Below are positions 12,801 through 64,000 of a DNA stretch of 64,000 nucleotides, piece by piece (the first letter of the stretch is position 1; the number at the start of each line of letters is the position of its first letter). Source of the stretch: Apostichopus japonicus (lineage: Eukaryota > Echinodermata > Holothuroidea > Aspidochirotida > Stichopodidae); NCBI RefSeq assembly GCF_037975245.1, contig NC_092577.1, positions 3,867,501 to 3,931,500 on the forward strand. The letters are read 5' to 3'. Below the pieces are notes generated by a model. That model was not told where the DNA came from, ran no database searches, and saw only the letters and a program-made list of their open reading frames with translations. The translations under genes were made by a program, and so were the position numbers.

Positions 12801-15800
12801 CTGCCATCCAAGTTGATCATGATGGATGAAATAAGTCACAGCTTCTACAAAATCCATGTTTTCTTTTTATGATCTTACTGTAATTCTCAATGACAAGAGC
12901 CTTAGGGTCCTATTTTCTTGTTTTTGACCTCGAGTGTTCTCATCCATAGGGCAATATGTAGAGCATGTTCTTTGTACTGTGTTCAAGGTGAACTTAGTTG
13001 TGAAAATGGTCACAATTCTGAACCAGTTCTGCTTATCCTTGGATTATTGCCATGAATAATATGCTATTGCATTCCAGTAAGCTAAACTTCTGTAGACTGT
13101 GGGTGTAAAATAATAAAGTATAAAAATATCAATGATTGATATTATAGAAGACACTCAAAGTTGGTGCGGGGGGGGGGGGGTCCTTTGATCCCCTTTCCTT
13201 AATTTGGCAAACTTTTCAATAATGAAAGTACTTAAGTGACCAAGCATTTGATTTTTTCAGCTTTGGCACTTTTAACTAATCCTTCAATGAATGGATTGAT
13301 ATGTAAGGTCTCTGGAGATATTAAAAAAGTGTTGTAAACAGAACTACTCATTCTCTTACCGGCAAATGTGCATTTATCCTCAAATTTCCATCAGGGTTTT
13401 CGGGCTTCATATGTGAGTATTGTGTGTACACATACAACATTGTGAGGACGAAGTCATATAATTCAAGTTTGAAAACCTTTAAGCCTTAAATATGATTTAC
13501 TAAATTTTTAAAGTAACATTTCTTCAACTCACATCTCAGGGATGTGCTCAGGAATATTTGAGTGCCCAGACGGATTTGTACGGTAGGATGATCCACATCT
13601 GGTGGTAGGATCTCAGGGGTGGGGTTCCCCCCCCTTTTGGAACCTTTTTTTGCAAATGAAGTATGCTTAGATGGTAAATGGTGCTGTCTTCTTGCTATTC
13701 TAGTGCAACTTGTGTGCCTAATGTTCACCCATGGATCTTTTGATAATGGTAAACTTGGTAAACTTAATCATCAAAACAAAATCTGAACACTAAATTTTGC
13801 CCAGTCACCTGGATGTGTGGAACCCTTATTTAAAACATGGAAGTCCTAACGTGTTGTTTGTTGCACGTAAGTGTGTACATGGAAATCCTAATGTGTTGTT
13901 TGTTACACAAAATTGTATACATGGAAATCCTAATGTGTTGTTTGTTACACATAAGTGTGTACATGGAAATCCTAATGTGTTGTATGTTGCACATAAGTGT
14001 GTACATGGAAATCTTAACCTGTTGTTTGTAGCACGTAAGTGTGTACATGGTAATCCTAATGTGTTGTTTGTGTGCACATTAGTGTGTACATGGAAATCCT
14101 AACCTGTTGTTTGTAGCACGTAAGTGTGTACATGGAAATCCTAACATGTTGTATGTTGCACGTAAGTGTGTACATGGAAATCCTAACATGTTGTTTGTAG
14201 CACGTAAGTGTGTACATGGAAATCCTAACATGTTGTATGTTGCACGTAAGTGTGTACATGGAAATCCTAACATGTTGTTTGTAGCACGTAAGTGTGTACA
14301 TGGAAATCCTAACGTGTTGTTTGTTGCACGTTAGTGTGTACATGGAAATCCGATTGTATTGTTTGTTGTACATTAGTGTGTTAATGGAAATCCTAACGTG
14401 TTGTTTTGTTGCACGTAAGTGTGTACATGGAAAAACCTTATGGGTTGTATGTTGCACGTAAGTGTGTACATGGAAATCCTATAAAACGTGTTGTTTGTTG
14501 AACGTTATTGTGTACATGGAAATCCTAACGTTTTGTTTGTTCCAAGAGTGTACATTCTTCGGTAATTGGATTTTAAAATAAAGTTCTATTTCGATCCTCG
14601 AGGTCACATATATCTCACCTTAAAACTGCTTTTATGCTAAACTTTTTTTATTCAATATTTTAAAACTGTTAGTTGCACTTTAAACATAATGCAAACGATA
14701 CACTATAAAAAAAATTCCCTGCACTTTTCAGTCACTGACAACTGACCCATATTGTTCACATTCTACAAAGAAATTTGAAAACACTGCACCGTGGAGGTCG
14801 ACTGAAAACAAATCGTTGCCATTGTGCTTCTCAAATTGGCGCCTTATTCCGACATACATGAGACCATCCAGTCACTGATAATTTCAGGATGAACGATTCA
14901 GATTGATAAACAATTTGGTTTTTCTTTTCTTTGCTAAAGTTTACAGTAATCAGAGTAACCTGAATTGGGTGGAAAGATTGACATTCCAATAGGTGCCAAA
15001 AACTATGTGGGGGATCCTAGATTCAAGATTATCAAATTTTGTAGGAATGTGTAAGATTGTTCATGAAAAACAATGTGAAGAAGCTTAGTACACAGTACAC
15101 AAGTTTGATTACAAGTATGTTTAAATACTATCATTCAACTCAATGCTAGTAGTTGTTAATGTTTAAAAGGTTTACCGACAAAATTGTCATAATATAATAT
15201 GACTTAGAAATCATGAAATAGCTGCAACTCCCATCAAAATCCATCAAACACTTACCATTTATTAAACAAGTCTTTTGTCAATTCTAGTTCTATTTATGAA
15301 TAAAACACGAGCGATATATACATTTAAATGACTGCCTAAATTTCTGTTATGGTACAGTATCCTTTTTACTTTCACAACCATCGTTTGAAGGACAATGAAC
15401 ACAGGTTTGTTTGTGTTACTGTACTTGCCATTTTACTGTACCTGCAGTTTACTGTACCTGGGTTACTGTACCTGCCAATAGTTCTTGAAGATAACTGTTT
15501 AAATTTTTAGCAAATACTATTGTGCTTCTCTCATTTAGCCCGTACACTCCTACACCAATGTCTGCTGTAATGCAGGAAAATGCAAGTTAAGGAACTTGAT
15601 TTTATCCGGATTTGCAGATGACATAGACACTAAATATCCACAGATAAAGGAGCACAAGGCGCATGACAATATTACCTTAGTCAACAATGATAGCCTGTCA
15701 AATATAGAGACAATCCCTCCACATGGCAGCAGCTAAACAGCGCCCAACTGACAGTTTTATCTCACAGGTCCCCATTTATGCACCCACCAGGGTGAATACA

Positions 15801-18800
15801 GGCTATGGAGATAAAGTGCCTTGCCCAAGGACACAACGTAACGATCTTGGCCAGGCAGGACTCGAACCTTCAAGCCTTAGATCACAAGTCCACTGCCTTA
15901 ACCACTTGACCACAAACGTTCTCAACGTTGCATTATTCTTAGCAAGTTGCTAGCTACAATTGCGAAATTTTTTGCCAGAGATTTCTCAATTATTCATAGC
16001 TTTTACATTTGAAATTATGAGTATCACTCTATGACGGACCAACTGCATAATTGATACTATGCACTTCTGCCATCCACCCCACCCCCCCTCCCCCCTCCTC
16101 CTCTCTTTTTTCTCCTTCCTTTTATTAATGGCACTGAACTTACAGTTCTCATGACTACTTGACACAATGCTAGATGCTTCTATGACCCAGCCTACTTTTC
16201 GTGATAGCATAGATCTGCAAAATTGAAAAACCATCATAGGTGCCAAAGCAGAGCAAAATATATGAATCCAAACCACGGTATCTTCACAAAGGAAGAGGAG
16301 AAAAAAAATATAATATACCAGTAACATAAAACAACAAAAGAAAAAGACACAAAACCTCAACCAAATTGTTATCATTATCTTTTGTTGCAGGGGAGGGGGG
16401 GGGGAAAGGAACTAATAGATATTGTCCCTTCATACTTTTTCTGACAAAGGTCAGAGAGCGGGGTGGCCAATTGGCTAAGGTGTCGGACTCGTGCAAGGAT
16501 TGCTGGTTTGCTTCCTGCCTCGTCTTTGGGCAAGATGCTTTATGTCAATTGCCTCTCTCCACCAAGGGGATTAAATGGGTACCTGTGAGGTAACTTGTCA
16601 TTGGGTGCAGTATGTAACTGCTGCCGACTGGAGGGATTGTCTCTGACAGGTCATCATTGACCAGGGGTAATATAACGTCTGTAAAGCGCTTTGAGACCTA
16701 TCGCTGGTATAAAGCGCTACAAAAAGCAAAAAAAAGCAAATATTCAAGGTCTTTGCCCTCTGCCATTCTGAATTGACAAACTCAATATAAGAATCAGACA
16801 ATTGTGGTAGGAAAAGATGTAATGGTTGACTGCACATGGAGCCAGACTGAGACGGATAGCTTAACGGATACTCGTTAAAAAAACATAATTGCCAATTGTT
16901 CCCTCTTCAACCAGCAGGAACAAAAGATGGACGATTTTGACCCGCAGGACTGTACTTCACATCGACGTTACAGAACGAAAATGCGGTTGAAATTTTAAAT
17001 GGTTTTACATTCCTGGTCTTAAAGGCACCAAAAGGTTGAGTAAACAACTGGACAGAGACTGTCCTTACAATAAAACCGTACTATGAAAAGACTGGGGAAT
17101 TGACCAAATATTGTTTAAATTTGCAACAGCTTGTTAAAGTGAAAAATTTACACAGTCATAAAAAGTGCATTATTTCTGATATGCTGAACTTAAGCACCAA
17201 CAGGTGGCTAAATTTATTTATATGCAAAGAACTAGTAGTAGTAGTAGTAGTGGAGAGATGGCTAAGTTTATGTTTGCATAACAGGACAACAACTCACTGT
17301 TTGAAAGTGTCCTTCAGTATCATATTAGAGCCTTAGTTATGAGATGCTGAAAGCTATCTTCTCTAAATTCTTTGTTAGATTCTATAAGATTTCTCCCGGA
17401 CAACCAACTTTGACAAAACACAGTCATCGAAAAATGATCCAATGCTGAAAGTTTCTGCACAGTTAGGAATGTGCCTGATGAGAAATAAATTTAATAAATC
17501 TCAGCGATAGGATGACTGATGAATTATGAATTATATTCAACATGTACAGATTTTACTAAATTAGCATACTTGTACAGTTCTTAGCTCAAGTACAACATCA
17601 TGAGTACAAACACAACTCCCCTCTGTATGAGAACAAGTACAACAGAACTCCCCTTGTGATGAGTACAAGTAAAACAGAACTCCCCTTGGAATATGTACAA
17701 GTACAACAGAACTCCCCTTGGAATATGTACAAGTACAACAGAACTCCCCTTGGAATATGTACAAGTACAACAGAACTCTCCTCGGTATGAGTACAAGTAC
17801 AACAGAACTCTCCTCGGTATGAGTACAAGTACAACAGAACTCCCCTTGGAATATGTACAAGTACAACAGAACTCCCCTTGGAATACGTACAAGTACAACA
17901 GAACTCCCCTTGGAATATGTACAAGTACAACAGAACTCTCCTCGGTATGAGTACAAGTACAACAGAACTCCCCTTGGAATATGTACAAGTACAACAGAAC
18001 TCCCCTTGGAATACGTACAAGTACAACAGAACTCCCCTTGGAATATGTACAAGTACAACAGAACTCCCCTTGGAATACGTACAAGTACAACAGAACTCCC
18101 CTTGGAATATGTACAAGTACAACAGAACTCTCCTCGGTATGAGTACAAGTACAACAGAACTCCCCTTGGAATATATACAAGTACAACAGAACTCCCCTTG
18201 GAATACGTACAAGTACAACAGAACTCCCCTTGGAATATGTACAAGTACAACAGAACTACCCTTGGAATATGTACAAGTACAACAGAACTCCCCTTGGAAT
18301 ATGTACAAGTACAACAGAACTCCCCTTGGAATATGTACAAGTACAACAGAACTCTCCTCGGTATGAGTACAAGTACAACAGAACTCTCCTCGGTATGAGT
18401 ACAAACACAACAGAACTTGCCTCGGTATGAGTACAAGTAGAAATGGAACTCACCTCAGCATGAGTACAAGTAAAACAGAACTCCCTTCTGTATGAGTACA
18501 AGTAAAACAGAACTCCCCTCGGAATGAGTGCAAGTGCAAAAAGAACTCCCCTCGTAAGGTTACTTAAGGTAACTTCTTTGGGCCACCAGACAATCCTTTT
18601 AAAAGGATTGTCTGGTGGCCCAAAGAAGTTACCTTAAAAAAATAATAAATAATTTTCCAAACATGTTGTCAAAGTATGAGAACGCTAATGTTGCGTTTGA
18701 CAGAGAAAAGATTTTATAATCGTTAAGGACGGACACTTCCAATATGATTTGAACAGTACAGAATGTGACGTCAACTATGCTAATGCAGATTGCGACATAA

Positions 18801-25166: not shown

Positions 25167-25427
25167 GCGGAGTGTATAGGCGGAGTGTATAGCCTAGTGG
25201 TTAACGCCGGCGTCTCCCAGTCATGAGATCCCCGGTTCGATTCCCCGCCGACAGCAATGTGTGTCGTCTGGCAAGGGTGTTGTTCAATAGCAACTTCCCG
25301 ACATGGACGTTAAATGGATGTGTGCCGAGAGATTGGCTTCGGTCAGCTTGCGAGTCTACAAGCCTCCATGGCTTCTTTCGCGAGTTCCTGCTTGCGGGAA
25401 GATCACATATACATACATACATACATG
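25167..25427 (+). repeat. tRNA-derived SINE, full copy with CATA tail
   Basis: The head shows a Pol III A box (TAGCCTAGTGG) and an exact B box (GGTTCGATTCC), then a body with CATGGACGTTAAATG and TTCCTGCTTGCGGG, and a (CATA)n tail. The first bases (GCGGAGTGTATA) are repeated three times upstream. Confidence 0.88.
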
Positions 25428-48106: not shown

Positions 48107-48226
48107 TCTCTACAATAACAATTTCCTGACATGGACGTTAAATGAATGTGTGCCGAGAGATTGGCTTCGGTCAGCTTGCGAGTCTATAAGCCTCCATGGC
48201 TTCTTTCGCGAGTTCCTGCTTGCGGG
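48107..48226 (+). repeat. tRNA-derived SINE, 3' part, interrupted at 48226
   Basis: Matches the 3' half of the SINE at 25.17-25.43 kb almost base for base, from TTTCCTGACATGGACG through CGAGTTCCTGCTTGCGGG, then breaks off where the integrase element begins. The tRNA-like head is missing on the left. Confidence 0.85.
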
Positions 48227-48228
48227 TA

Positions 48229-48540
48229 TGGTTGGCCACAGTGGACAAAATTCGGGAATTTATGCCGACATATATTCGATTAAATGCTGACATAAATTAG
48301 ATTTTATGCAGACATTAATTCTGAGCCAATCAGGAGGCAGTTTTATATGTCTACATAAAATCGATTATATGCCCTCATAAAATCGGTTTTATGCTGGCAT
48401 ATATTCGATTTAATGCTGACATATATTCGATTTAATGTCAGCATATATTCCATTTAATGCTGACATATATTCCATTTAATGCTGACATATATTTGACCAA
48501 TGAGAGAGTAGGAAAATATGTCTGCATATATTCACTTCCG
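48229..48540 (+). repeat. Left terminus and subterminal repeats of the integrase element
   Basis: After the terminal TGGTTGGCC, five or more copies of a unit near 22 bp are spaced through the region, based on TAATGCTGACATATATTC. Some units are inverted (TAATGTCAGCATATATTC), so the DNA can fold locally. Two CCAAT words in similar contexts (AGCCAATCAGGAGG near 48315, ACCAATGAGAGAG near 48495) lie inside. Subterminal repeats of this kind commonly serve as transposase binding sites; that role is inferred. Confidence 0.6.
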
Positions 48541-48785
48541 ACTACAATTCCGGCCACATCCGACAACAAATTACCCACATCCGACAACAATTCTTCAACA
48601 GCCAATCGCTGCGTTTGTTAGAAATGAATCACGGCGCTGGTTTTTAAATACCAATCGTCACCAGTTACTCAGGGTCCATAGGATAGACTATAGTATAGGG
48701 TTAGCCCCGAGCATTGTTTGACTATATCCATGGCAAAGCGTGTAAGCCTGAGCCTGTTGTAAGCTTGTTTGCCTTTACCCTTATT
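48541..48785 (+). promoter_or_regulatory. Leader region upstream of the integrase gene
   Basis: Contains a CACTTCCG word resembling an ETS site (near 48532), a twice-repeated ACATCCGACAACAA (about 48555-48592), a CCAAT word near 48602 and a TATAGTATAGGG stretch near 48690 that could place initiation. A 10-codon upstream ORF (48730-48762) starts in a strong context and ends before the integrase ATG. Promoter assignment is inference. Confidence 0.35.
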
Positions 48786-51700
48786 ATGACCCGTTTGGAC
48801 GACCGAGATCAATTCCTTCGGGATTTTCGAAGGGAGGTTAACGATTGTGTACGAGTAGTTACCACCCAACTCGACAATCAACAGGTTCTTGGTGACGTTT
48901 TGGAGAGACTTTCTGCCCTTAAACGAGATTTGCTCCACTCTCGGACAGGAGACATCGTTAGTGCGAGCGCATACGACTCCCTGCTGAGTTCACTAAACCG
49001 ATTGGTTGAACTTGTGTCTCGACAAGCTGAAGTTGAAGAATCAAACGCAGGTAGGCATTTTTCCCCCCCAGAGTGACTTGAATGGAAGTATCAAAACACC
49101 TTTTGCAATATTGAATTCAATCAAGGTATTGGTTAGGCTCTAACCTACTTTGTTAAGCCTTACAGGCTTTATAGGAGACTTCCCGTCACACTGTAAATTG
49201 TGATGAAAGAAATAAATATACAAATACAAAACCTAGTCAGTAGACCAAGCCTAGGCCTATAGCATACAGTGCATCATAGTCATGTAGCCAGAGGCATTTA
49301 TTAGTTTTATTAACTACAACCCTACCCTATATTAGGATACCTTCCTGTAGTCGATCAGCGCATATCATTATATTAATTGCTGTAGGCCTAGTTGCATTCC
49401 CATATTTTCCTGCTTCCCCTATTTTCGTGCTTACGCGTCCCCTAGCTATTTCTGTGCAGTACGGACATACGGCATAAGGCTTAAAAAAATAACAATAAAA
49501 GGACAATTTGTACAGTACAGAGTAAGAATACCACAAAGTGGACATTTTATATAAGTCACAGTATGCATGGGCCAGCCAACATGTATATCATGAGAAAGGG
49601 TCATATTTGAAAAACAGACCAATGCTGGAGAGGTAAAGATGCTGTACTGCAGTCTGTGCGTATAATATGTTGTTTTATTACAAACAGGAGAAAATATAAT
49701 TTCAGTTTTTTTCGAAGGGTACATGAAGTACCTTTCTATAATGAAACCTTTGAATTCTTCCTACAGTATGTCATCGCACCGTGAGGTGGTTGCAATGCTG
49801 TTTAACTAACTATATTCTGGTATCTTTTCTTTTGCATCTTCTGGCTGTCAACTACAGATGTAACCGAAAGTTTTGCCAGTACTCGTGTCTCCAGCAGGCA
49901 GAGAGGCTCTCCAAAGTTTAACATAACACGTGCTCAACTGGAGTTCTTAATAGCGTGCCGGTTTTCCCAAAAAAAAATTGCTGAAATACTACATGTTTCA
50001 TCAAGAACAGTATCAAGGCGTTTCAAGTAAGTCTGTATTGTACGTACTTCAGTTGGTTTTGTCTGATTTTGTCAGATCATGCTCTAACCAGTGATTGTCA
50101 ACCGTGGCCCTCTCAGTGTGGCCCGGAACTGAATTTACATTTAAAGAAAACAAAAAAAAAGTAGGGAAAAATCATAACAGACTTGGGATAAACAACAAAA
50201 ATCGTTGACTTGTATTTTAATTATATTTTTGGGAGCCACTGATTCCTTCCCATCCACTTTACTCCCCTTAACTAGCTCCAAATTGATGTCTAGACTGCTT
50301 GGCATGTGACTCCTTTGATGGCCTTATGAATAGCCAGTGGCCTTTAACCTCAGCCCTACAGCTCTATTTGGCCCTGGCTCTTACAAAGTTCAAGAATCAC
50401 TGCTTTTAATTGTAAGGTTCCAGGGGTCAAATATTTTTTGACTTCACTTTTCATCATCAAGCTCATTGCATCATACTGTATATACTGTAGGTATGCAGAC
50501 TTGATTTTATACAGTAATGTGGCACTTGACAGACATTTATTTACAGCAGTGGAGTGGGTGGGGGCATAAAATGTGAGCGTACTATGTTATATGTGCATGA
50601 TGGTTGACACTCCAGTGTTCATGTTTTACTAATGAGCCATTATTTGTTATGAATTTCAATGCCTCTCTAGACACTGAAGCAAAGATGACCTTCCAAGAAT
50701 TATTGTGCATACAAGTGTGTTATGTTGATAGTATCCACAAAACCGTACATTACTTGCATGCATTTGTCGTTCACAGTGTACATGCGAGACACAGAAACAG
50801 GGAGTTGAGGTTATCCATTTTCCACACATTAAAATCCTGGAATATTGGCATGGAAATTGGGAAAGAGTGTGGAAAGATCTTTCTGTATCGTAAATGAAAG
50901 TTCCTTACTACAATATTTGTGATCCTCCCTTTAGACTCTCAATAGGTTTGATCGGCAGCGTGCCAACAATTAGGGTAGGTATGCTGTGTTCAGATATATG
51001 CCTTAAATTGTCGTAAGGAAGAGTCTGGTAGACTTCTTAGTAGAACCTTGAAAAGCCTGGACAAGGCAAGAAATTTACTCTGTTGTAAACTGCATGTCCA
51101 AATTGTGTTTGTCATGCATTACCATGCTGCAAATAATTATAGAATGCCATTACATGATGATAAGCAATCAAGATAGTAATGCATCATATTATCCTTTCAG
51201 AGAATTCAATCTTGACACAGAAGATTACAGTGACATGAGCACTGAAAGCTTGGATGAAACTGTGCAGAGACTCCTTGCTGGGAACCACAGAATTGGTGCC
51301 AATACTGTTGTCACTCTCCTCCACAATGAAGGAATTAAAGTACAAAGAGAAAGAGTGAGAGAGTCTGTCCGCAGAGTAGATCCTGCTGGCGTTGCATGCC
51401 GTTCTAGACGTGTGTTGAAACGAAGGGCTTACAAAGTTCATTGCCCAAACTCACTTTGGCATTTGGATGGCAACCATAAATTAATAAGGTTTGTACAGTA
51501 ACCATTAAACATTTACTTTTAATAGTCACTTGAGGGAAGTGTACTGCATGTGCAGCACACGTTACTGAACATAACATTGACTTACACATTACATTTTTTT
51601 TGTGGTAAACTCACATCTAGGCTTTTGCATGTGAAAGGTTATGTTGTTGTCAATAAAGGTCAAATAATGAAAACATAATTACTATGTATCGTCTTGATTA

Positions 51701-52529
51701 GTGTTAGCCGATATATAAAAAAATATTACAGAGTGAATGATGCAAGATGTTGCCATATTTTATTTGCAGATGGCGGATTGTTGTGCATGCTGGTGTTGAT
51801 GGGTTCTCAAGACTAATAACCTTCATGAAGGCAAGCACTGACAACAGAGCTTCAACTGTGTTTGAGCTGTTTAAAGAAGCCACAAAACAGTATGGGACAC
51901 CATCACGTATAAGGTGTGACAACGGAGGTGAAAATACAGCTGTTTGCCAATTTATGGAGGAATACCATGGTACAGGGCGTGGCAGTGCCATTAGAGGGAG
52001 GAGCGTGCACAATCAGCGTGTTGAAAGAAACTGGTTGGAAATGTGGAATGGTTGCATCAATGTATATTATGACCTTTTCACAAAGCTTGAAGAAGACAGA
52101 CTCCTTAACCCTAACAGCGAAGAACAATTATTTGCCCTTCATTATGTTTATTTACCGTCTATTAATCATGCATTGAAAAAGTTTGTTCTTCAATGGAACC
52201 ACCATAAAATGCGAACAGAGCACTCTTCATCACCTCTGCAAATGTTTGTTATGAGATCGCTAGAGGTTCAGGGATCTTTATCAACAGCAGTTGTGGATAT
52301 GTGGGAGAATGCAACCCATCAAGACACATCCATAGATACAGCATCAAGGCATAGTGATGAAGAAGATGATGCATCGCTCACTTATGTGGATGTACCAACT
52401 ACTGTAGCACCAATAACAGACACACAATTAGAACAACTCAGGCAACATGTCAACCCTATGGAAACGTCTGAGAATTTTGCTGTTGACATGTATCTGCAAG
52501 CTTTACATGTTATAAGTGAATTTCATTGA
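48786..52529 (+). CDS. DDE integrase-type transposase, 493 aa, 4 exons
   Basis: Predicted DNA transposase of the eukaryotic integrase-core family that carries an LDGNHKLIRW signature (retroviral-integrase fold). Exons 48786-49050, 49858-50026, 51201-51488 and 51770-52529 all have GT-AG borders. Their phases (1, 2, 2) join to exactly 494 codons including the stop. Residues 1-88 are charged and probably helical. Residues 115-144 form a helix-turn-helix (LEFLIACRF..KKIAEILHVS..TVSRR). A conserved linker (RRVDPAGVA) precedes the catalytic core. The triad is complete: Asp234 in HLDGN, Asp291 in RCDNGGEN, Glu326 in QRVERNW (34 residues between the last two). A Ser/Asp-rich tail follows. The start is the first in-frame ATG; its context is weak, and a 10-codon out-of-frame upstream ORF in strong context begins at 48730. 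No frameshift or stop is seen, so the gene looks functional. It faces the HECT gene at 57.7-64 kb. Confidence 0.92.
50089..50402. mobile_element. hAT-like MITE in intron 2 of the integrase gene
   Basis: The ends match as imperfect inverted repeats: CAGTGATTGTCAACC on the left and, reversed, CAGTGATTCTTGAAC on the right. The interior carries GTGGCCC/TTGGCCC words typical of hAT-derived elements. The flanks GCTCTAAC and CTTTTAAT match only partly, so the 8-bp duplication is decayed or the boundary is slightly off. Confidence 0.6.
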
Positions 52530-52946
52530 CTGTTAGCTTAATAATGTACCTATAGTACAATATTGCAAGAATATATATTAAAAAGGTTAAAAATGAAGCT
52601 CATTTGTCTAATTCCCATCTTCATAGCTAATTCAGTTGCTTAATTTATTTATTCACTTTACATGAAATAGTGGATTGCTGATATTGTGTGATGTCCTTCT
52701 TGTACTACTATTACTACTTTCTTGTACTACTATTGAAATGAATATGTTTACATTACCTTGCAAAATGACCCCTTTCTTGCATAGCATTTTGTGTGGAGAG
52801 GGTCTGCAAAGTCAGGTCACTATAAATATAAGACAGTGATCACATTTTGGCAAAAGGTGTAGTGGCCTTTGTAAAAACAAAACCAGTAATCTGAGTAGTA
52901 GTAAAATAGTGATATTTCAAATTATTGTGCAATTTTCTATTGAGTG

Positions 52947-52952
52947 AATAAA
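52947..52952 (+). terminator. Possible poly(A) signal of the integrase gene
   Basis: AATAAA lies about 420 bases after the integrase stop codon in AT-rich sequence, with GT-rich stretches further downstream. It is the first exact AATAAA I noticed after the stop. Confidence 0.35.
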
Positions 52953-55137
52953 CTTCAATATTTCATACCTTAGCACAGGAATGTACGATAGCCTAGGTCA
53001 ATGCAAACTCCAGTAATTCTGAAAGCCCTACAGAAACAATAACCACTGTTTGAAAAGAAAGGTGCAATACTTTATTTTGTTGGTAAATACAAGATTTTGT
53101 CCCTTCAACAGAATTTGAAAAACCTTTTTTATGCTTTTGCACTAGATTATCTTCCTGCTAACAAGTTTCATTGGGAGTATGCACATCCTAAAACACTTTG
53201 TTGGGCTTTGTAAATAATTTTTAGTCTTATACACTCTTTTGTAGGAACAACTTAACTATTCCTAACTTCCCTTGTACCACTGGTGAAGCTTGCAAAGTGC
53301 CACATACAGTATTCAACACCAAAGCTCCTGGCAAATTTTGCTTTGTACATTATATCCAGCCATCTTTGCTAGTAGTGGTTTTGCTTCAAAACTCAAGTCA
53401 TTATCATTGCTTTTAACTCACACACAAAGTTGCGGCAGAAAAGAGGTTTTCATAGCATAGAAAATACATTGTAGCATATGCATTCACCTATTGTGCCAGT
53501 TAATTTTAGCCACTCCGTTTTGAAAACTAGAAAGTTTAGTGATTCATAGCCTATAGGAAATATTCTTTAAGTTTATGGTGGTTTCAAATTGACATGACTT
53601 CATCGTGAAGTTTCTTTGTTTACACTTACATACGGAATGCTAAGTAGGAGACCCTGCCATTCCAGAGATATTGTGTTCACATGCACATCACATAGATCCT
53701 TTTTGCCTTTGGCAAGGAATCAAAGTGTAATATTTTTAGAGTTTTGTAATATATACTGTAATATTCATTTCCAACATGTTTCCTGCACTTCCATTTATGT
53801 TCAGAAGATCATTGTTCTCCAGAACAGTTACTTTGGAACTTTGTTTCTACACTATAAACCTTGTGCTCTAGTACATTTTTCTGTTATCATACTGATGGCT
53901 GTGTACTTTTACTCTTATGCAAGGCTTTGTACTGGTACTTTTGTGCATGTCAGATTGATAGCAGTACAGGAGTCTAGAGAAACCTATGGATAGTTGGTAC
54001 TGCTAGTTAGTAATTAGTATTCAGGAACATTCATGAGACCACTGCAACAGTTACAATATGACTGGCCAAGGCTCAACCTCAACTTAATTAATCTGTATAT
54101 AGCAGCATATTCACAACTACATTCAGTGGCTGCTGCCAGTAATTTGAACCTTTCTGCATTGAGTAATAACGTTCATGTAAACCTGATGGCAATGTAGAAG
54201 CCCAGCAATGTAGAAATTCTTATTTCGACATTTCATCCTAGTCAGTGGATGGAACTGGTAGTGTCACAACTGAAACCCCTCTCAAAAAGTTGTAACAATG
54301 ATATGAGACAGTGTAATCATATGCAAACTGTACACTTCACAAATTATGTATGTTTGCTCAGCTTTATGTTGAACAAAATCATTGTGTAATCTGAACAAAG
54401 AGGTATATTGATGCTGCAGTAATATATTTGAAGAAATTGCATCAGCCAATCAGTAATGTGAAATGTCATTTGCTATGCACCCTCATTATCTGTGCATGTT
54501 TGAGGGGTTTTGTCAAATTTATGGTGTCAGAATGGGGGGGGGGGGGGGGTTGTAAGGGAGACCTGTGACCCTAAAGGATAGAACAAGTGGGACCAGTTGG
54601 ACAACTGTTTTTCTTAATTACTTAATTCAAATGTTAAGGGAGGCTCAGTGAAATATTTAAGCCATGTGACAAACATTAAATGATATTATGTATCCCTCAG
54701 AAAAAAGATTATAGACATTAGAGAGGTTTGGTCTCGATGAGAGTTAAACTAATATCAGACAAGTACTTTGAGCTGAACATGTGTATATTTAATTTTATTA
54801 AGACAAATGTTGTGTTTGAGTAGTTTTCAGTCTGTCGAGTTGTCATTACATTTGGTTATTAAACATCAGCTCTTGAAAACTTACATCTGCTTATGTTTGA
54901 ATAATTTATGTATCTTTAGTCTTGTGATGTGTCACTGACAGTAATCTTTGGGAAAAACTGGTAGTACTGTGAGAGCCTTCAACTTGGTTCCCATGCAGTA
55001 GGGGAAAGTGTGGGAACCCTGCTTCAATATCATGTGACCTCTATTCCAGTTACAGTAAGGACATTAATATTGCAAACAAGCTCTGCCCATTTCTAATGAA
55101 TGATTACTTGGTAGCACTGCTTAACAAATCTAGTACA
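52953..55137. other. Non-coding spacer within the putative large transposon
   Basis: One 125-codon plus-strand frame (53616-53993) has no known domain and unusual Cys/His/Phe composition; I treat it as chance. A 16-base G run lies at 54534. No repeats until 55138. Confidence 0.4.
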
Positions 55138-57480
55138 ATAGCTAATCCTCTTCCAAAAGGTAGCACACAAGTAATACATTTAACAAAAAAAAAAAGAAAT
55201 AATGAAGACAGCCTTGGCAGTATAAAGTTAGTTTAATGAAACATTTATAGTAACATAAGTAAATTTGAAAACAGTCAAAAAGTTTGTAAAATGATATGTA
55301 GAAATATATAGGCAATGTACATTGCTTTATGCTGGCAACTGAGGACGGCATGAAAGAGTTGGAGGGAATATCTATTACACTCATTGTGGCAAGAACTATC
55401 GTCCAATAGGGCATGCTAACATTGCCATCAAGTGTACACTTATCTTTATGTTGTTATTCATTTATGTCTGTCTAATGAAGGGGTCTCACTCAGACAAGAC
55501 CATAGAAAAAAAACACATATATGATCTAGTTATATAGAGTAGCTAATCATCTTCCAATGTAGCAAAAAGTAGCACACAAGTAATACATTTAACAACAAAA
55601 AAAGAAGAAAAAATGAAGACAGCCTTGGCAGTGTAAAGTTAGTTAAAACATAAATACATTTGAAAACAGTCAAAAAGTTTGTAAAATGATATGTAGAAAT
55701 ATATAGGCAATGTACATTGCTTTATGCTGGCAACTGAGGACGGCATGAAAGAGTTGGAGGGAATATCTATTACACTCATTGTGGCAAGAACTATCGTCCA
55801 ATAGGGCATGCTAACATTGCCATCAAGTGTACACTTATCTTTATGTTGTTATTCATTTATGTCTGTCTAATGAAGGGGTCTTACTCAGACAAGACCATAG
55901 AAAAAAAACACATATATGATCTAGTTATATAGAGTAGCTAATCATCTTCCAATGTAGCAAAAAGTAGCACACAAGTAATACATTTAACAACAAAAAAAGA
56001 AGAAAAAATGAAGACAGCCTTGGCAGTGTAAAGTTAGTTAAAACATAAATACATTTGAAAACAGTCAAAAAGTTTGTAAAATGATATGTAGAAATATATA
56101 GGCAATGTACATTGCTTTATGCTGGCAACTGAGGACGGCATGAAAGAGTTGGAGGGAATATCTATTACACTCATTGTGGCAAGAACTATCGTCCAATAGG
56201 GCATGCTAACATTGCCATCAAGTGTACACTTATCTTAACAATGTTGTTATTCATTTATGTCTGTCTGATGAAGGGGTCTTACTCAGACAAGACCATAGAA
56301 AAAAACACATTTATGATCTAGTTATATAGAGTAGCTAATCATCTTCCAATGTAGCAAAAAGTAGCACACAAGTAATACATTTAACAACAAAAAAAGAAGA
56401 AAAAATGAAGACAGCCTTGGCAGTGTAAAGTTAGTTAAAACATAAATACATTTGAAAGCAGTCAAAAAGTTTGTAAAATGATATGTAGAAATATATAGGC
56501 AATGTACATTGCTTTATGCTGGCAACTGAGGATGGCATGAAAGAGTTGGAGGGAATATCTATTACACTCATTGTGGCAAGAACTATCGTAAAATAGGGCA
56601 TGCTAACATTGCCATCAAGTGTACACTTATCTTAACAAAGTTGTTATTCATTTATGTCTGTCTAATGAAGGGGTCTTACTCAGACAAGACCATAGAAAAA
56701 AACACATATATGATCTAGTTATATAGAGTAGCTAATCATCTTCCAATGTAGCAAAAAGTAGCACACAAGTAATACATTTAACAACAAAAAAAGAAGAAAA
56801 AATGAAGACAGCCTTGGCAGTGTAAAGTTAGTTAAAACATAAATACATTTGAAAGCAGTCAAAAAGTTTGTAAAATGATATGTAGAAATATATAGGCAAT
56901 GAACATTGCTTTATGCTGGCAACTGAGGACGGCATGAAAGAGTTGGAGGGAATATCTATTACACTCATTGTGGCAAGAACTATCGTCCAATAGGGCATGC
57001 TAACATTGCCATCAAGTGTACACTTATCTTAACAATGTTGTTATTCATTTATGTCTGTCTGATGAAGGGGTCTTACTCAGACAAGACCATAGAAAAAAAC
57101 ACATTTATGATCTAGTTATATAGAGTAGCTAATCATCTTCCAATGTAGCAAAAAGTAGCACACAAGTAATACATTTAACAACAAAAAAAGAAGAAAAAAT
57201 GAAGACAGCCTTGGCAGTGTAAAGTTAGTTAAAACATAAATACATTTGAAAGCAGTCAAAAAGTTTGTAAAATGATATGTAGAAATATATAGGCAATGTA
57301 CATTGCTTTATGCTGGCAACTGAGGATGGCATGAAAGAGTTGGAGGGAATATCTATTACACTCATTGTGGCAAGAACTATCGTCCAATAGGGCATGCTAA
57401 CATTGCCATCAAGTGTACACTTATCTTTATGTTGTTATCCATTTATGTCTGTCTGTCTTACTCAGACAAGACCATAGAAA
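55138..57480. repeat. Six-copy tandem array, unit about 397 bp
   Basis: The word AGCTAATCATCTTCC recurs at intervals of 401, 395, 397, 397 and 397 bases. Each unit repeats the same text, including ACAGCCTTGGCAG, AGGCAATGTACATTGC and ACTCAGACAAGACCATAG. Units are nearly identical, with a few indels (AAC insertions after ACTTATCTT, A-run length), and the first unit is the most diverged. The array occupies the gap between the integrase and HECT genes and may be part of the HECT 3' UTR. Confidence 0.95.
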
Positions 57481-57582
57481 AAAACTGAAGTCTTGTTACT
57501 TGTTGTTCCTTGAATAAGACTGACTACTAACACAAATCTGAAGTGAGTTTACACCCCCTACCCCTCCCCCCTCCCCATAGGT

Positions 57583-57703
57583 GGTTAGTGTTAGTAGAGC
57601 TTGCTTAAAAACTTGTGTTAGTGTTAGTAGAGCTTGCTTAAAAAAAAAGTGTTAGTAGAGCTTGCTTAAAAACTTACATGGCACAAAAAAAAGTTACATG
57701 GCA
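57583..57703. repeat. Short tandem repeat next to the HECT stop codon
   Basis: Three copies of GTTAGTAGAGCTTGCTTAAA, the last two separated by A-runs, then two copies of TTACATGGCAC. Lies directly downstream of the HECT stop on the minus strand. Confidence 0.8.
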
Positions 57704-57704
57704 C

Positions 57705-60700
57705 TCATGAAATAGAAAACAAATAGCCCTCATGCCCTCCACTCAAAATAGAATTGAATTCATATCGCAGGTCTGTGATGTCTGCATACATGACTGACAA
57801 TTCCAGGACAGGACCACAAGTCCTGGCAACTGGCCTTCTTTGCAGTCCAGCAATACTATTGAACGTAACTTCTATTGAAGCTACGGACATGACAGAGGAG
57901 CCAGTGCAGAACTTAAGAAACCTTGAGAGCATGTCCCTTTCAAGACCTCGAACATACATTTTTAGAAGTTGAAACACTTTTTGCTCTCTTGCAGAATTTA
58001 CATTTGCTTTGAGGAGTTTAAGCACTTTTCTATTGGTAGGAGCTATTTCCTTTACCAGTGACTGGATTGAACTCACATCGGTGAAGTCGGGTCGCAGGTA
58101 CCTTCTAGTCACATCAGCCATGCACACAAGAGGATACTTCGAAGTTTGAATTAATATCTTGTGTGCTATTTGGAGCAAGCATTTATCAAAGTGAGCGTGG
58201 TTGCCACTGTTGGGAATGGCTGAATTCCACCCACTGTCTGCAAGAAATTCAATCAAGTCAGTTTGGTCATCATCATCAAGAGGATTATCTCTTGCCCTAA
58301 CAAGCATATCCTTCACGTCCTCAGGCGAATAGCTATACAAACTTGAGAGTAGCATGTCGTCTGTAACCATTTCTTCTCCAAGCAGCATTGCTGTTAAAAA
58401 AGTAATGTTAAGTCTTATTGGAAAGATCTTGTGGTCTTTATATCCTTTCACTAAAATGTGACCCACTGCCAGCCATTCTTCCCTACAATACTGAACCGTG
58501 ATACAAGGCACAACTGTGTTACTCCCAGAAGTACGCCTGTCATAAAAAGCATCCCAGAAGGAGCTATATGCATCCCGAGACACCCCTGACTGGTTAACAG
58601 CAGACTCGCCCACAAAGCTGAATGTCAGCTGTTGGTGAATTATTCCTTCAGACTGGAAGGCAACTATCATATCCTCCAGTACTTGCAGTCGATGTATTTT
58701 TACTTCCCTCACATCATCCATGGGAGGTGGGGGTGATGGTGATCTTGGTGACTGTGGCGGTTGTGTCTGTAGGGTAGGTGGAGGATGTACTGACACTTGC
58801 AGAGGTGATGAAAGTGACCTTTGTGGCAATGTAAGATCTAACTGCGGTTGCCCTGAAGGCGGATGCAGTAACTCTCCCATCTGTGGTGACGGTGACCTTG
58901 AAAACGGCTGAGGTCGCATGGATGAAGAAAGTACTGACTGTGGCAGCACTGGTGGTAGTGAGCGTTGTGAAGAAGAAAAACTTGATCCTTGACCTTCAGT
59001 ACTGCTACCATAAAGAGAATGTTCCTGTAAAAGACCAAAAAAGAAATATAAGCAATTATATTTCAACTCACCATGAAGTAGGAACTTAAAATGTAAAACT
59101 GGACAATTTTTCACAATTTTTGCATGCCTGGCAACATTACATCTTGAAAAGCTTAAATTTATCAATGTTCTTAAGATAAACTAAACCCCAGGTATCAATG
59201 AAATCCCAGGTAAGTTGACTAAGGCAGTTGGTTATATTGTAGCACCCTGAATAATATACAGATACTACTCATGACCTCAGCAAAAAATCAGTGAAAGAAT
59301 TCTTTTCCATTTTAATATACTTACAAAGAAAAAACAGAATGCAAAATATGCACTGAGGTCTTGAAGACTGCATAACACAAGACTTAGACTGTATTTTGAT
59401 CAGAAATGGCTCTTATGAATGTCCAGAACCACTATTATGATGATCGATAACACAATGCAGGTCATTTTACTGTAGCAGTACAGACCACCAACACAAAAGG
59501 GGTCTTGCATGTACTCAATATGATGTAGTATCCATTCTTCCTACCTGGAGATATGTTTAGTTTTCAGAGTTTGAACTCTGGTGACAACAGATGAGCTTTG
59601 ACATCCATCAAAAACAAGTGTTCTTGCACACAATAAATGACATTGACAAACAATCTAGGAGAGTTATCCATGTTTCCTACCTTGGGATACCATTTTAATA
59701 GGTTTAGCATTTGCCCTATGGTAACTCTAGGTGAACTTTGATCTCAACCAAAGCAATAGGCTTCAGAGATTTGATTTAACACATCCACATACCATGCATG
59801 AGGAGATCTATATGCCTCTTATGTTGAGATAGCATGTTTACAAGATTTCCAGTTTGACCTCTGGTGACCCAAGATGACCTTTGACATATACCAACACACA
59901 ACAGCTAACATGTACTTAACAAGACACATCCACATACCAAGTTTAAAAAGCATCCATACATCCTTCTTAAAGATATTGTGGTTTCAATGTTTTCTGCACT
60001 TGACATCTGGTGACCCATATAACCTTTGACATCTACCAAAAACAACAGGATTATTCTACTCTTGTGAAACATCCACATACCAAGTATGAGAAGTATCCAT
60101 GCTTCCTATCTGTCACCAGGACTGCATAGGTTCTGATATTCACAAAAAATGGAAAGGCCTCAGACAGCAGCCAATGCTTTACTGTGCATAATCAAAACTA
60201 AATATGTCTGTGCAATAGCAGGAGGAATCTGACTACAACAATCACCTGTGCAAACTATCAATTCAAGTTCCAAACAAAAAAGGTAACAAGAGGAACCAAC
60301 CTGATTACTTGCTGTACTGCTCTTTGCAGGTGAAGTTTCACCAATGACGGCAATGTCAAAGTCAGATAACTAAAAATGAGGAAAAATATTTATATATATA
60401 TGAGAATATAAATATGAGGCATTATTGATACTCCCCTCGTTTTGCGAAGCAAGCATTGTTTACCAAGCATGAATATATGTAACACTGAGGTAGCAGGCAA
60501 CAAATGTGACCTCATTACTACACTCATCACACGCATATCGAGATTGCTCTTTCCTCCTCCCAGGATAATAATCCCTAACAAACTCACAGTAGGTAAGTGG
60601 TAACAACAAACATGCCAAGAAACAACTCCATTTAAAGCCAAAACCCTCAGAGCTGTTACTTGACTACATGTTGCAATTGGCAAGTCCCCCAAGCCTAGTT

Positions 60701-63700
60701 TTTACACCGATATGTGTAAATGGCTAATGTCTATGAATCAACTGAAAATGCAGAAGGGAAGTGTGATTATACTTATGATCCTGTTTATCAGGGAGCATGA
60801 TAACAGCTAAGTTTTACTCGCAATGCTGGAATTACCATATATGAAACAATGAGCTAGGCACATACATAGCAAGAAAGGGCTTTTGAGGGCAACAGCAGCA
60901 AATATTGTTAAGTCAATAACTGAAAACAGTCACTAATTTGCTGCTACATTTACTCCCAGCTATCCAAGGAGACTGGAAAATCAATCCTTTGAGGAGTATT
61001 TTGAATATGTGAAACAAACTAACCTCTGGAATATCCTCACTACTACACTCATCCAAATATGGCATAACATGCAGAGTATCTTCGAAGTCATCATCATCGT
61101 CACTGTCATTGTTCTACATATAAAGAGAAAGCCACAAACAAATTTACACCTATGCCAACAGTACAAAGGCAGGGATCCATTAAAGCTGGTAATCAGTTAA
61201 TTCCCCCCCCCCCTATTGCATATTTGTTACCAGCTTTGTGCATCAGGAAGGCACTCCAAATATCTCCAATTTCAAAAACAAAATGTCCCCAATGTCACCC
61301 ATTTAAACCGCCCAATATGCAGGTGAGAAGTACCTAGCATTAAATGTTCTTGTTCAACGTAGAACGATCCATGCCAACATTCTATGATTGTCAAAGCAAC
61401 TCAACTTAACCTTCAGCATCAATCTCTTGCATGTGTACTAGGATGCAGTGATCACTCAAACATGCATAGGGCAGAATATATACAGCTCTATTTTATAAGC
61501 TTTCTAGCCCTCTGTTGACACCTTTGGTGCCAATGCTATTTCCACCTATCTAGCTTATTTTACCTGCTATACAAAAAAATGAAAAAGCAACCCCTGCTAA
61601 AGGATCAATTACCCTGTTTAAATTGAAGAGCACTGAAGGAGTACCAGATGCATTTCTTCTCTCTCTTTCACCATTGAATGAACCCGAAGAGCATGGTTCT
61701 TCTAGTGCTTGGTCTGGCTGTATCTAGAGGGCAGGAATACAAACATTGGATTATTAAAATGTGAAAGTAAAGACTACAAGTACCTTATGTCCATTATGAG
61801 CCGATTGATCAAAATTGATGTGGACTGAATGCTGCTTTCATTTGCAGCAAATAATCACTGATGGGTTAACTGCAAGATGGCCAGACTCCTTTAAATGTAT
61901 CTCTGAATTTTGCAGTTCTTTTGACTCTGAATACTTCAATGACTGAAATGGTTTCATCAGTGACTACCACCACCTTTTATTATTTTAGTTAAAGACCTTG
62001 TGGCTATATGTAATCACTAAGAAGAAAGAATATTTGTCTGTTATTCTGGTCACAATGTAATAAATGATAACTTTAAGATAAATGATTAGGAAAAATCATA
62101 ATAATATTAAGAAATGGAAACTGCATCTCATCAAGTTACTGCAATTTTTACTTCCTAATATTGACACCTGTTAACTTACCCATGCAACATTAACAACACA
62201 TGCTGATGTAATTCCTACATCCTGCAAGGTTTTATAATGAGATTCAGTGGATGAAATTGACCTTTGCCCTACAGCATTGAACGTAAACTGCTCCGTTGCA
62301 CCTTCAAGGGAACCAATCCAAGTCACCAAAACCTGAAATGATGAAGTAAAGTTTAAACTTCTTTAATAAGGACTGTTATTAGTAGTACAGCACACCTCAT
62401 TCAACCAGCATGTTATTAAATATCAAAACATACAAGAGCCATTGTAAGTTTCATAATTATTGTGTAAAATGTAATTTAAGGCAATACCTTACCTCCTTAT
62501 GTATAATGTATAGGGGGATGAGATATTGTAATTCACCAGACAACAAGGATGTGCATTCAAGATGTATGTGAGTAAATATCTAAGTAAGTGAGTATGTGCA
62601 TGTAAGCAAACATGTCTGTCGCAAACTCCTTCTCAACGATACATCCTTTCAAGTTCAAACTTGGTGGGTAGGTGCCTAACCATGACAACCTGTGTGGGCA
62701 TAATTGATGTCATAGGTAAACAGTCACAGGTCAAATAACCTACAAAATTGGGTTTTTGCTATCTTTTTTTTTCTTGCTATTGCCTGTTTTCTGGTAAAAT
62801 TACCTCATTGATTTTATGAATTTTCGTAAGCTTTTATCAAATGAGTCCATGAGAGTACTTGTTTGGGTCTTCAAACTCTGGAGAACTGCCTCATGTCATC
62901 ATTACATTGAGAAAACCTCCAAGACAACAATACAGCATAATCTAAACTAATTCTCAAATGCCACTCAAGTAACGAAAAGTAGGGATGCTGTTTCAGGGTA
63001 TTTAGCTACACATTACACTAGTAACCCTGGTGGAAATTCCAGTTGAACTTTTGAACTCGGTTCAACTGGAATTTTCTATATGGAAATTGGCCCAAATTTG
63101 AACTAGGTTGAAATGGGTGAACTGGGGTTCCCAACTGGTTCAACTATGTTTTACTGGGTCCAACTGGTTCAACTATGTTTTACTGGGGTTCCCAACTGGT
63201 TCAACTATGTTTTACTGGGTCCAACTGGTTCAACTATGTTTTACTGCGTCCAACTGGTTCAACTATGTTTTACTGGGTCCAACTGGTTCAACTATGTTTT
63301 ACTGGGTCCAACTGGTTCAACTTTGTTTACTGGGTCAACTATGTTTTACTGGGTTCAACTGGGTCAACTAAGTTTTGCTGGGTTAAACTGGGTGAACTAT
63401 GTTTTACTGCTCATATTTTTAAATAGTTTGAACTGGGATTCTCAACTGGTGTTATCTACACAATATAACACCACACTATAAAGTTTTCATTTTTTTACAG
63501 TAGATCTATACTGTATGTAAGGGTGTAAGTCACTGAAAATAGATGCAAACATACTAGACTGCTGGCATCTTAGCTGTATGCACCTTCAAGTTTAATCCTA
63601 CATGTTAAGTTGTGTGCATGTCACATATATCGTACTAATACAGTTATTTACAATTTTTCTGGTACATTATCAAATTTATTGGTGTCACACTTATGACAAA

Positions 63701-63975
63701 GTTTTACATGTTACTTGCTACTTCAAATTATATATTGTGTACACATTTCACAGCAGAATGTAAAAGTATGCTACAGTAGGCTGACATTTGTTTATGGAAG
63801 GGCCTAAATACACTGATCACAGTTCAGTTATGACACGACCAAGTATACTTACTGAAAGAGCATTATCACAAGAAAACTTTCGTTGAAAGCACCCACTTTG
63901 AGTTCTGCATTTCACTTTAAATCCTTCCTCTGGCTCTGGCAAAGATTGAATTGCTTCAATCCGGTTATGTCTGAT
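57705..63975 (-). CDS. UBX-like/HECT E3 ubiquitin ligase (5' end outside the window)
   Basis: Predicted E3 ubiquitin ligase. Visible exons in transcript order: 63975-63853, 62332-62180, 61723-61613, 61113-61024, 60369-60301, 59024-57705. All are phase 0 with GT-AG borders and give 621 residues to the stop. The first two exons form a ubiquitin-like, UBX-type fold (FKVKCRTQSGCFQRKF ... VLVTWIGSLEG ... LQDVGITSACVVNV). Exons 3-5 are acidic and Ser-rich, including NDSDDDDDFED. The last exon opens with about 100 Pro/Ser-rich residues, then a HECT domain: LTFSFVGESAVNQSG near its start and a C-lobe ending RRPVARTCGPVLELS. The thioester Cys codon is 57816-57818, 37 residues from the end. HECT proteins with a TCGP C-lobe like this are abundant and repetitive in fish and invertebrate genomes, often named G2/M-phase E3 ligase-like. 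The gene converges on the integrase gene and I infer both belong to one transposon. Upstream exons lie beyond 64000. Confidence 0.88.
59540..60120. repeat. Degenerate 140-150 bp repeat with TGACC(T) words, in a HECT intron
   Basis: Four diverged units each contain a CTGGTGACC/ACCTTTGACATC phrase followed by AACA and an ACACATCCACATACCA-type phrase (59579, 59716, 59855, 60006). The style matches the array at 3.6-4.1 kb in the NAPRT gene. Confidence 0.6.
63105..63440. repeat. 29-bp minisatellite in the first visible HECT intron
   Basis: About ten copies of a unit built on TTCAACTATGTTTTACTGGG with TCCAACTGG as the joining phrase. Some units carry the longer GGGGTTCCCAACTGG. Open reading frames here are a by-product of the repeat. 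Confidence 0.92.
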
Positions 63976-64000
63976 CTAATATATTTAAATAAATGAAAAT

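Follow-up and report, generated by a model that had tools for sequence, protein, structure and literature searches.

A two-gene DNA transposon of Apostichopus japonicus in which a DDE integrase gene and a HECT ubiquitin ligase gene lie tail to tail

In the sea cucumber Apostichopus japonicus, a stretch of 64,000 nucleotides (the window) contains an integrase gene of the DDE type that converges on a gene for a HECT E3 ubiquitin ligase. Do both genes travel in one mobile element, as the original prediction had it, and if so, what would a transposon gain from a ubiquitin ligase? Here, we report a complete DNA transposon of 22,377 bp at 48227-70603 (window numbering is continued rightward beyond 64000). 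We regard it as nearly certain that this is a two-gene transposon, i.e., a DDE integrase with a tail-to-tail HECT E3 ligase; what the ligase does there is answered with less confidence below.

Results

Ends and insertion site

The element has the termini TATGG..CCATA and a target duplication of 6 bp (Table 1). Its terminal inverted repeats (TIRs) measure 386 bp on the left versus 430 bp on the right and are 84% identical to each other, the left one being made mostly of 22-bp tandem repeats. A defined left terminus starting with TGG had been predicted at 48229; the defined end stands, but its position is corrected to 48227 and its start to TATGG. The inverted end and the remainder of the interrupted repeat, both sought to the right of the window, were found there: the right end lies at 70603, not before 57.7 kb, and the joined flanks of the element match window 25285-25426 across the junction (96.5%, 142 bp). 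This empty paralogous site carries neither the integrase nor the HECT gene.

Table 1. Coordinates of the element, its two genes and the empty site (window numbering).
Feature	Position	Strand	Basis or remark
Left target-site duplication TGCGGG	48221..48226	.	right copy 70604-70609, continued coordinates, beyond window
Transposon body, in-window part	48227..64000	+	whole element 48227-70603
Left terminal inverted repeat	48227..48612	+	starts TATGGTTGGCCACAGTGG
Integrase exon 1	48786..49050	+	splice model; P0001
Integrase exon 2, helix-turn-helix	49858..50026	+	splice model; Pfam
Integrase exon 3, WHLDGNHKLIR, Asp234	51201..51488	+	splice model; protein comparison
Integrase exon 4 and stop, Asp291, Glu326	51770..52529	+	splice model; protein comparison
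Tandem array separating the two gene ends	55252..57454	.	397-bp unit, 5.6 copies, 98% matches
Last HECT exon and stop: proline-rich linker, complete HECT domain	57705..59024	-	splice model; Pfam; predicted structure
HECT exon 10	60301..60369	-	splice model
HECT exon 9, acidic	61024..61113	-	splice model
HECT exon 8	61613..61723	-	splice model
HECT exon 7, second half of UBX-like region	62180..62332	-	splice model; Pfam
HECT exon 6, first half of UBX-like region	63853..63975	-	splice model
HECT exons 1-5	70015-69894, 69334-69150, 68234-67996, 66828-66718, 64984-64937	-	continued coordinates, outside window
Paralogous empty site, other copy of the repeat hit by the insertion	25285..25426	+	alignment spanning junction

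The integrase gene

The four plus-strand exons of the integrase splice into an open frame of 493 aa, whose product matches a protein predicted for A. japonicus (P0001) at 100% identity over its full length. The gene is intact, and Asp234, Asp291 and Glu326 are found exactly as read originally; 118 of the 120 integrase proteins listed out of 597 matches (the query's own record counted) have the full DDE triad. Pfam matches are rva_4 (E 3.2e-86) and rve (E 3.3e-9), and the N-terminal rows belong to helix-turn-helix or sigma-type DNA-binding families. Zinc-binding integrase families are missing from the 15 Pfam rows with E <= 1, which is an absence of match only. A sequence search of the PDB with the integrase gave weak retroviral integrase matches at most (best E 0.21).

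The HECT gene

The HECT gene lies on the minus strand, starting at 70015, beyond the window, and ending at 57705; its 11 exons give an open frame of 856 aa with AG/GT at the internal junctions. Please note that this model was drawn up by eye from genomic DNA, and that its outside backing is a public protein (P0121) which covers the later exons only. The codon of the catalytic Cys (57816-57818) corresponds to residue 820 of the 856-aa model, and this Cys is kept in all 18 rows of the HECT alignment and in 10 of 10 A. japonicus proteins of another alignment, the window being counted in both. With the Pfam HECT model, the 621-aa window part scores 25.1 bits versus a cut-off of 23.9, and the 856-aa protein 23.8 bits, slightly under it. 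The predicted structure has a mean pLDDT of 77.5, mostly >90 in the HECT portion, and the PDB structural matches listed (50 of 101, E <= 0.001) are all HECT ligases or complexes thereof, with TM-scores by query length of 0.31-0.55 and identities of ~11-19%; the top match is HUWE1 (E 1.2e-11, TM-score 0.54 by query length). Judged by this predicted model, the HECT fold with both N- and C-lobe is present.

The convergent multi-exon gene had been described as UBX-like/HECT. Its HECT domain, catalytic Cys and multiple exons are borne out, but the UBX-like label is weak: the Pfam UBX match stays under the cut-off of 21 bits (14.0 bits, E 0.06 for the window part; 13.7 bits for the 856-aa protein). 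The canonical p97-binding FPR motif was not seen by eye in the UBX-like region. Recruitment of p97 is therefore weakly based, because the match is sub-cut-off and no FPR motif was seen. When 18 HECT proteins are aligned, conservation is almost confined to columns of the HECT domain and the remainder aligns poorly; homologue searches returned 4 matches at first and 16 when the HECT region was used (the query's record counted). Compared with a coral protein (P0134), the N-terminal region gives a full-length E of 0.052, which is not significant, and the match at E 0.004 pairs non-corresponding regions.

Further copies and genome-wide pairing

A second full copy resides on another chromosome (C16:42948954-42970872), with its own duplication GCCGTA identical on both sides; it is 99.1% identical to the window element over 21,741 aligned columns and contains both genes in convergent orientation. 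Its integrase is intact and a UBX-like HECT exon has an in-frame stop, a combination that is expected if the ligase is supplied in trans or dispensable. A second family (C5:1994003-2018872), whose integrase is about half identical, shows both ends, the duplication GTGACA and the same convergent pair. All three elements with both ends read (window, C16 and C5) thus have TATGG..CCATA termini and 6-bp duplications (TGCGGG, GCCGTA and GTGACA). In a fourth element (C17:23.5 Mb), the CCATA end is present, and the opposite end was not found in the DNA examined. The HECT gene of the C5 family was missed by tblastn with HECT proteins and recovered by the Pfam model, so the absence of a match is weak evidence.

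Clusters of matches were formed with a 10-kb gap on the same strand; 87/251 and 150/224 genome-search candidates were scored, and the cluster counts are lower bounds. Of the 71 HECT clusters detected, 40 have an integrase cluster (84 detected) at a distance of at most 20 kb, each a distinct one, and all 40 neighbor pairs are convergent, i.e., tail to tail. Random placement yields 1.5 such pairs on average and 8 at most (5000 trials); local shifts yield 2.6 on average and 9 at most. The count of convergent neighbors within 20 kb called for originally is hence 40, HECT is multi-copy in this genome rather than single-copy, and the claim that both genes travel in one element is upheld by TIR and target-site bounds in three elements of two families, by the empty site and by the uniform orientation. 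On the other side, no HECT was detected within 20 kb of 44 of the 84 integrase clusters; many of these are fragments, but some keep open frames, so that a ligase in cis may not be a strict requirement. In other species, no contig common to integrase and HECT proteins was seen by eye (120 of 597 integrase matches listed), and viral contigs, scanned with the integrase and with the HECT alignment, yielded no relative.

Gene trees and selection

The trees of the two genes agree for the most part: two multi-member clades are common to both, and one inner node differs. The Mantel correlation over 8 non-redundant pairs is r = 0.61, reached by 730 of 40,320 permutations; this main figure leaves aside two near-duplicate pairs and C17m, whose HECT fragment is not readable in one frame. 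With the two near-duplicate pairs restored, r = 0.85 (0/20,000 permutations). The integrases of the paired families differ at 40-76% of residues.

Between the window element and the second copy, HECT dN/dS is 0.16 (6 changes/1979 sites vs 11/589, Fisher p = 2.6e-4), and these substitution counts show purifying selection on the HECT gene. The integrases of the two copies are too alike for selection to be gauged (p = 0.13). The stop in the second copy accounts for one of the six non-synonymous changes in HECT.

Discussion

Relation to known elements

Polinton/Maverick elements surround their integrase with genes for DNA polymerase B, protease and capsid; no genes of this type were seen by eye among the open frames here, where short-exon genes could escape notice, and 10 longer frames outside the two genes had no Pfam match at E <= 0.01. 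RAG1 contains a RING E3 domain, and the RAG-like transposase belongs to a different transposase family. Ligase activity is a domain of the transposase in RAG-like elements, whereas it is a separate HECT gene here. RAG-like (RAGL/ProtoRAG) transposons resemble our element in having two convergent genes per DNA transposon (PMC7204232).

By sequence, the ends and the duplication fit the IS3EU/GingerRoot superfamily. PMC10045372 and PMC12730594 describe, as here, an integrase-like DDE transposase in which no HHCC zinc domain is detected, TA..TA termini, a 6-bp target-site duplication and TIRs >30 bp, and TATGG..CCATA fits the fungal IS3EU pattern TAYGG..CCRTA given there. Unlike these, the elements found here are 22-25 kb long, have TIRs of ~400 bp built of short tandem repeats and carry a HECT E3 ligase as second gene. 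Extra genes that adjoin the transposase are described for fungal IS3EU too, i.e., TET/JBP and an alpha-kinase, the latter oriented oppositely to the transposase (PMC12730594); the words ubiquitin and HECT do not occur in the main text of that paper. TET/JBP switched superfamilies, whereas the integrase and HECT trees here are largely congruent. Compared with host HECT E3 ligases (HUWE1, NEDD4 and UBR5), our protein shares the predicted fold and the catalytic Cys but belongs to a transposon-borne group whose N-terminal region is peculiar to it, and shows the low identity noted above. Among 5.39 million open-access papers, none mentions both IS3EU and HECT, and we found there no account of a DDE transposase that is regularly accompanied by a HECT ubiquitin ligase; in a review that mentions HECT domain, DNA transposon and integrase (PMC6027436), the HECT gene is a giant-virus one and not transposon-borne. 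What is new is the HECT ligase as a long-standing second gene of such a transposon, transposon-borne TET/JBP and, in fungi, alpha-kinase being known already.

Possible roles of the ligase

Our preferred reading, which we hold to be somewhat probable as a whole, is that of a large cut-and-paste DNA transposon of IS3EU/GingerRoot type whose ligase most likely acts on the element's own integrase complex. The integrase would bind the repeat-rich TIRs, cut the element out and join it to a new site with a stagger of 6 bp. The ligase would be a dedicated accessory expressed from the element and would ubiquitinate either the integrase itself or a host factor retained at the ends; a very stable strand-transfer complex might be removed in this way, or the level of the integrase limited. 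That the ligase serves some function for the element is likely, and that its target is the element's own integrase complex is a tentative proposal that may well prove wrong.

Could the two genes be neighbors by chance, or by a preference of integrase elements to land beside HECT genes foreign to them? Nothing was found in favor of this extremely improbable account, and the HECT gene inside TIRs and duplications in three elements of two families, the paralogous empty site free of both genes and the 40/40 convergence speak against it; on these bounds, site and orientation statistics we reject it, and it is refuted where both ends were read. A host HECT gene captured and carried without function is hardly more attractive, although transposons do capture genes and the HECT frame is interrupted by a stop in one full copy out of two. 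The pairing recurs, always convergent, across families with integrases as divergent as given above, and the gene is under purifying selection; on recurrence and selection, we reject non-functional cargo as quite improbable. Because the pair recurs tail to tail in many distant relatives genome-wide, the ligase looks integral rather than a stray passenger.

The main rival to our preferred reading, though rather unlikely, would be the role of an anti-host factor which tags host proteins of silencing or repair (PIWI pathway, heterochromatin, DNA repair) for destruction, so that the element evades repression. For TET/JBP of fungal IS3EU and other transposons, escape from methylation has been suggested (Kojima 2025, PMC12730594), and the poorly alignable region outside the HECT domain is what one would expect of a protein chasing changing host targets, although incomplete gene models look similar. 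The near-congruent trees and the constant gene order across deep divergence suit a core partner at least equally well. 

With less than even confidence, we suggest that a deep branch of animal IS3EU/GingerRoot-type transposons may be two-component, with a dedicated HECT ligase as the core partner of the integrase and ubiquitination built into transposition, e.g., to take the strand-transfer complex apart or to set the integrase level.

If this suggestion of a core partner is true, this HECT group in fish, corals and molluscs would consist of transposon genes and not of host family expansions; and should the element depend on the ligase to move, a defined gene pair would open the control of transposition by ubiquitin to experiment. 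HECT genes annotated in aquatic animals may likewise be transposon genes. In the present genome, 31 of the 71 HECT clusters lie far from any integrase cluster. Seventeen HECT clusters have at least two Pfam HECT matches and are presumably mostly host genes; 16 of them have no integrase within 330 kb or on the contig, and the remaining one belongs to the 40 pairs.

Ends, duplications and insertion site

The DDE integrase gene and the HECT E3 ubiquitin ligase gene lie tail to tail on a DNA transposon, of which a second full copy was found on another chromosome, at C16:42948954-42970872 (C numbers denote A. japonicus contigs or chromosomes). The alignment of the two loci is collinear from window position 48227 to 70603 (numbering continued past the right edge), and the sole matches beyond this range, of 121 and 257 bp, are short and lie elsewhere. 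Both copies start with TATGGTTGGCCACAGTGG and finish with its inverse, and each has its own 6-bp duplication on both sides, TGCGGG for the window element and GCCGTA for the C16 copy. Their lengths are 22,377 and 21,919 bp, respectively, and 99.1% of the 21,741 columns aligned between them are identical. When the two flanks of the window element are put together around a single TGCGGG, they match window 25285-25426 across the junction (142 bp, 96.5%), as well as three further places less closely. Window 25285-25426 is another copy of the repeat and represents a paralogous empty site, and the interrupted repeat forecast in the original prediction was indeed found.

The inverted repeats of the window element are about 400 bp long and consist largely of 22-bp tandem units. 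Short-unit tandem arrays make up the inverted repeats in both families found here: 22-bp units at 48227-48612 in the window element, and self-overlapping ends (C5:1994003 and 2018872) in a second family on C5; these arrays may be multiple binding sites of the integrase. Between the convergent gene ends, 55252-57454 holds a 397-bp unit repeated 5.6 times with 98% matches; long minisatellite arrays also occur in the window outside the element.

Minisatellite arrays of the window lying outside the element
Feature	Window position	Unit length	Copies
Minisatellite	1692-2457	22 bp	34.7
Minisatellite	13835-14541	42 bp	16.7
Minisatellite	17603-18552	32 bp	29.6

The two genes

The integrase gene proved genuine and intact, its four exons coding for 493 amino acids, with Asp234, Asp291 and Glu326 where they had been predicted, and a predicted A. 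japonicus protein is identical to it over its length. The DDE triad is intact in 118 of the best 120 of 597 integrase relatives. Pfam assigns rva_4/rve with an N-terminal helix-turn-helix, the best match of the latter being below its cut-off; no HHCC domain was detected in the integrase.

The HECT gene extends beyond the window, and the rest was read from neighbouring DNA of the same genome. Our gene model, built by eye without transcript support, joins 11 exons into an open frame of 856 amino acids, with a complete HECT domain within the last exon. The AlphaFold model of this exon (mean pLDDT 77.5, HECT part mostly above 90) matches solved HECT domains, the best being HUWE1 (E 1.2e-11, TM-score 0.54). 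The public A. japonicus HECT protein BSL78_17181 lacks exon 63853-63975, which codes for the first half of a UBX-like region, and its start falls inside an intron of our model, either because the public model is incomplete or because the protein has an alternative start.

Genome-wide pairing and shared history

Whole-genome searches gave at least 88 matches with the integrase query and at least 143 with Pfam rva_4, merged into at least 84 clusters; BSL78_17181 gave at least 48 and Pfam HECT at least 96, merged into at least 71 clusters, host HECT genes among them. Both cluster counts are lower bounds. Of the 71 HECT clusters detected, 40 have an integrase cluster at most 20 kb away, and all 40 pairs are convergent; their gaps have a median of 3.8 kb and range from 1.3 to 19.4 kb. 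When positions were drawn at random on the same contig, there were 1.5 neighbours on average and at most 8 in 5000 trials; with local shifts of 0.1-2 Mb the average was 2.6 and the maximum 9. With the ends and duplications of a mobile two-gene unit and convergence throughout the near pairs, the earlier suggestion that integrase and HECT travel together holds. Two or more Pfam HECT matches occur in 17 clusters, presumably for the most part genes of the host; for 16 of them the nearest integrase is more than 330 kb away or their contig has none, and the remaining one belongs to the 40 pairs. On the integrase side, 40 of the 84 clusters detected have a HECT neighbour; for the other 44 none was detected within 20 kb, and some of these keep open frames. 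Integrase clusters are strongly concentrated on C17, where 10.6 Mb (15-25.6 Mb) holds 32 of the 84.

Distance matrices of integrase and HECT from eight non-redundant pairs are correlated (Mantel r 0.61, reached by 730 of 40,320 permutations). Two multi-member clades are common to the integrase and HECT trees, which differ at one weakly supported inner node. Between the window element and the C16 copy, HECT has 11 synonymous and six non-synonymous changes (dN/dS 0.16, p 2.6e-4), and one of the six, in the UBX-like exon, is an in-frame stop carried by the C16 copy; the integrase has only three changes (p 0.13). Divergence between these copies is 1.01% in non-coding and 0.49% in coding DNA.

Other copies, families and species

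The window family has a third, degraded copy at C16:29.53-29.55 Mb that retains convergent parts of both genes on either side of a 16.7-kb insertion; its HECT part breaks off at window position 60391, within an intron. The fourth locus, at C17:15.6 Mb, is a fragment cut within the integrase, and no HECT match was found in the 50 kb examined there. In the second family, the C5 element spans 24,870 bp and has TATGG..CCATA ends; its inverted repeats measure about 410-420 bp, and a GTGACA duplication flanks it on both sides. Its integrase is about half identical to the window integrase in conserved exons, and its HECT is divergent with the Cys present. This copy may not be intact: the integrase core match has a stop, and the element holds stretches missing from a relative at C17:23.5 Mb, which has a CCATA end at the corresponding place; the other end of this relative was not found in the DNA examined. 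HECT is also paired convergently with a divergent integrase group (C7:2.37, C18:1.40, C8:13.97, C1:19.50 and C19:16.32 Mb; matches 34-36% identical), and in the four sequences read WHxDxYDKL or WHIESYDKL replaces WHLDGNHKL.

Named integrase relatives (best 120 of 597) come from fish, corals, mussels, a priapulid, a nemertean and a sea urchin, and named HECT relatives from Holothuria, the pearl oyster Pinctada, notothenioid fish and the coral Stylophora. These ranges overlap; the physical pairing was read in A. japonicus alone.

Class of element and earlier literature

In its ends, duplication length and transposase type, without a detected HHCC domain, the element fits the published descriptions of IS3EU/GingerRoot in Kojima and Bao 2023 (PMC10045372) and Kojima 2025 (PMC12730594). 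According to the latter, fungal IS3EU have 6-bp TSDs and TIRs longer than 30 bp with TAYGG..CCRTA ends, and carry TET/JBP and alpha-kinase genes. The A. japonicus elements are alike in the 6-bp duplication and in TATGG..CCATA ends, whereas their extra gene is HECT.

No paper combining IS3EU with HECT was found in the open-access literature searched, and phrase searches there for earlier reports of such an element gave no match; titles and abstract starts among the matches listed report none. HECT domain, DNA transposon and integrase together matched solely a virophage review (PMC6027436), whose HECT passages concern a mimivirus gene. As for PMC4255032 and PMC4284660, HECT is absent from the main text of one and occurs in the other only in the name Hector; the passages searched of PMC12062965, which deals with fusions between TE domains and multicopy domains, are without HECT.

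Possible role of the ligase

The window element is a mobile two-gene unit in which integrase and HECT form a long-standing pair, and we infer that the ligase works for the element. We favour the element's own integrase complex as the target on which the ligase would act. Strand-transfer complexes of the DDE type are highly stable, phage Mu needs an unfoldase to remove them, and in animals an unfoldase is reached through ubiquitin. The UBX-like region would fit this route, but it is below the Pfam cut-off and no p97-binding motif was seen in it, so our case is not rested on it. The main rival is that the ligase removes host silencing factors. One of the two full copies combines a broken ligase with an intact integrase, a state that agrees with a ligase supplied in trans or with one that is dispensable.
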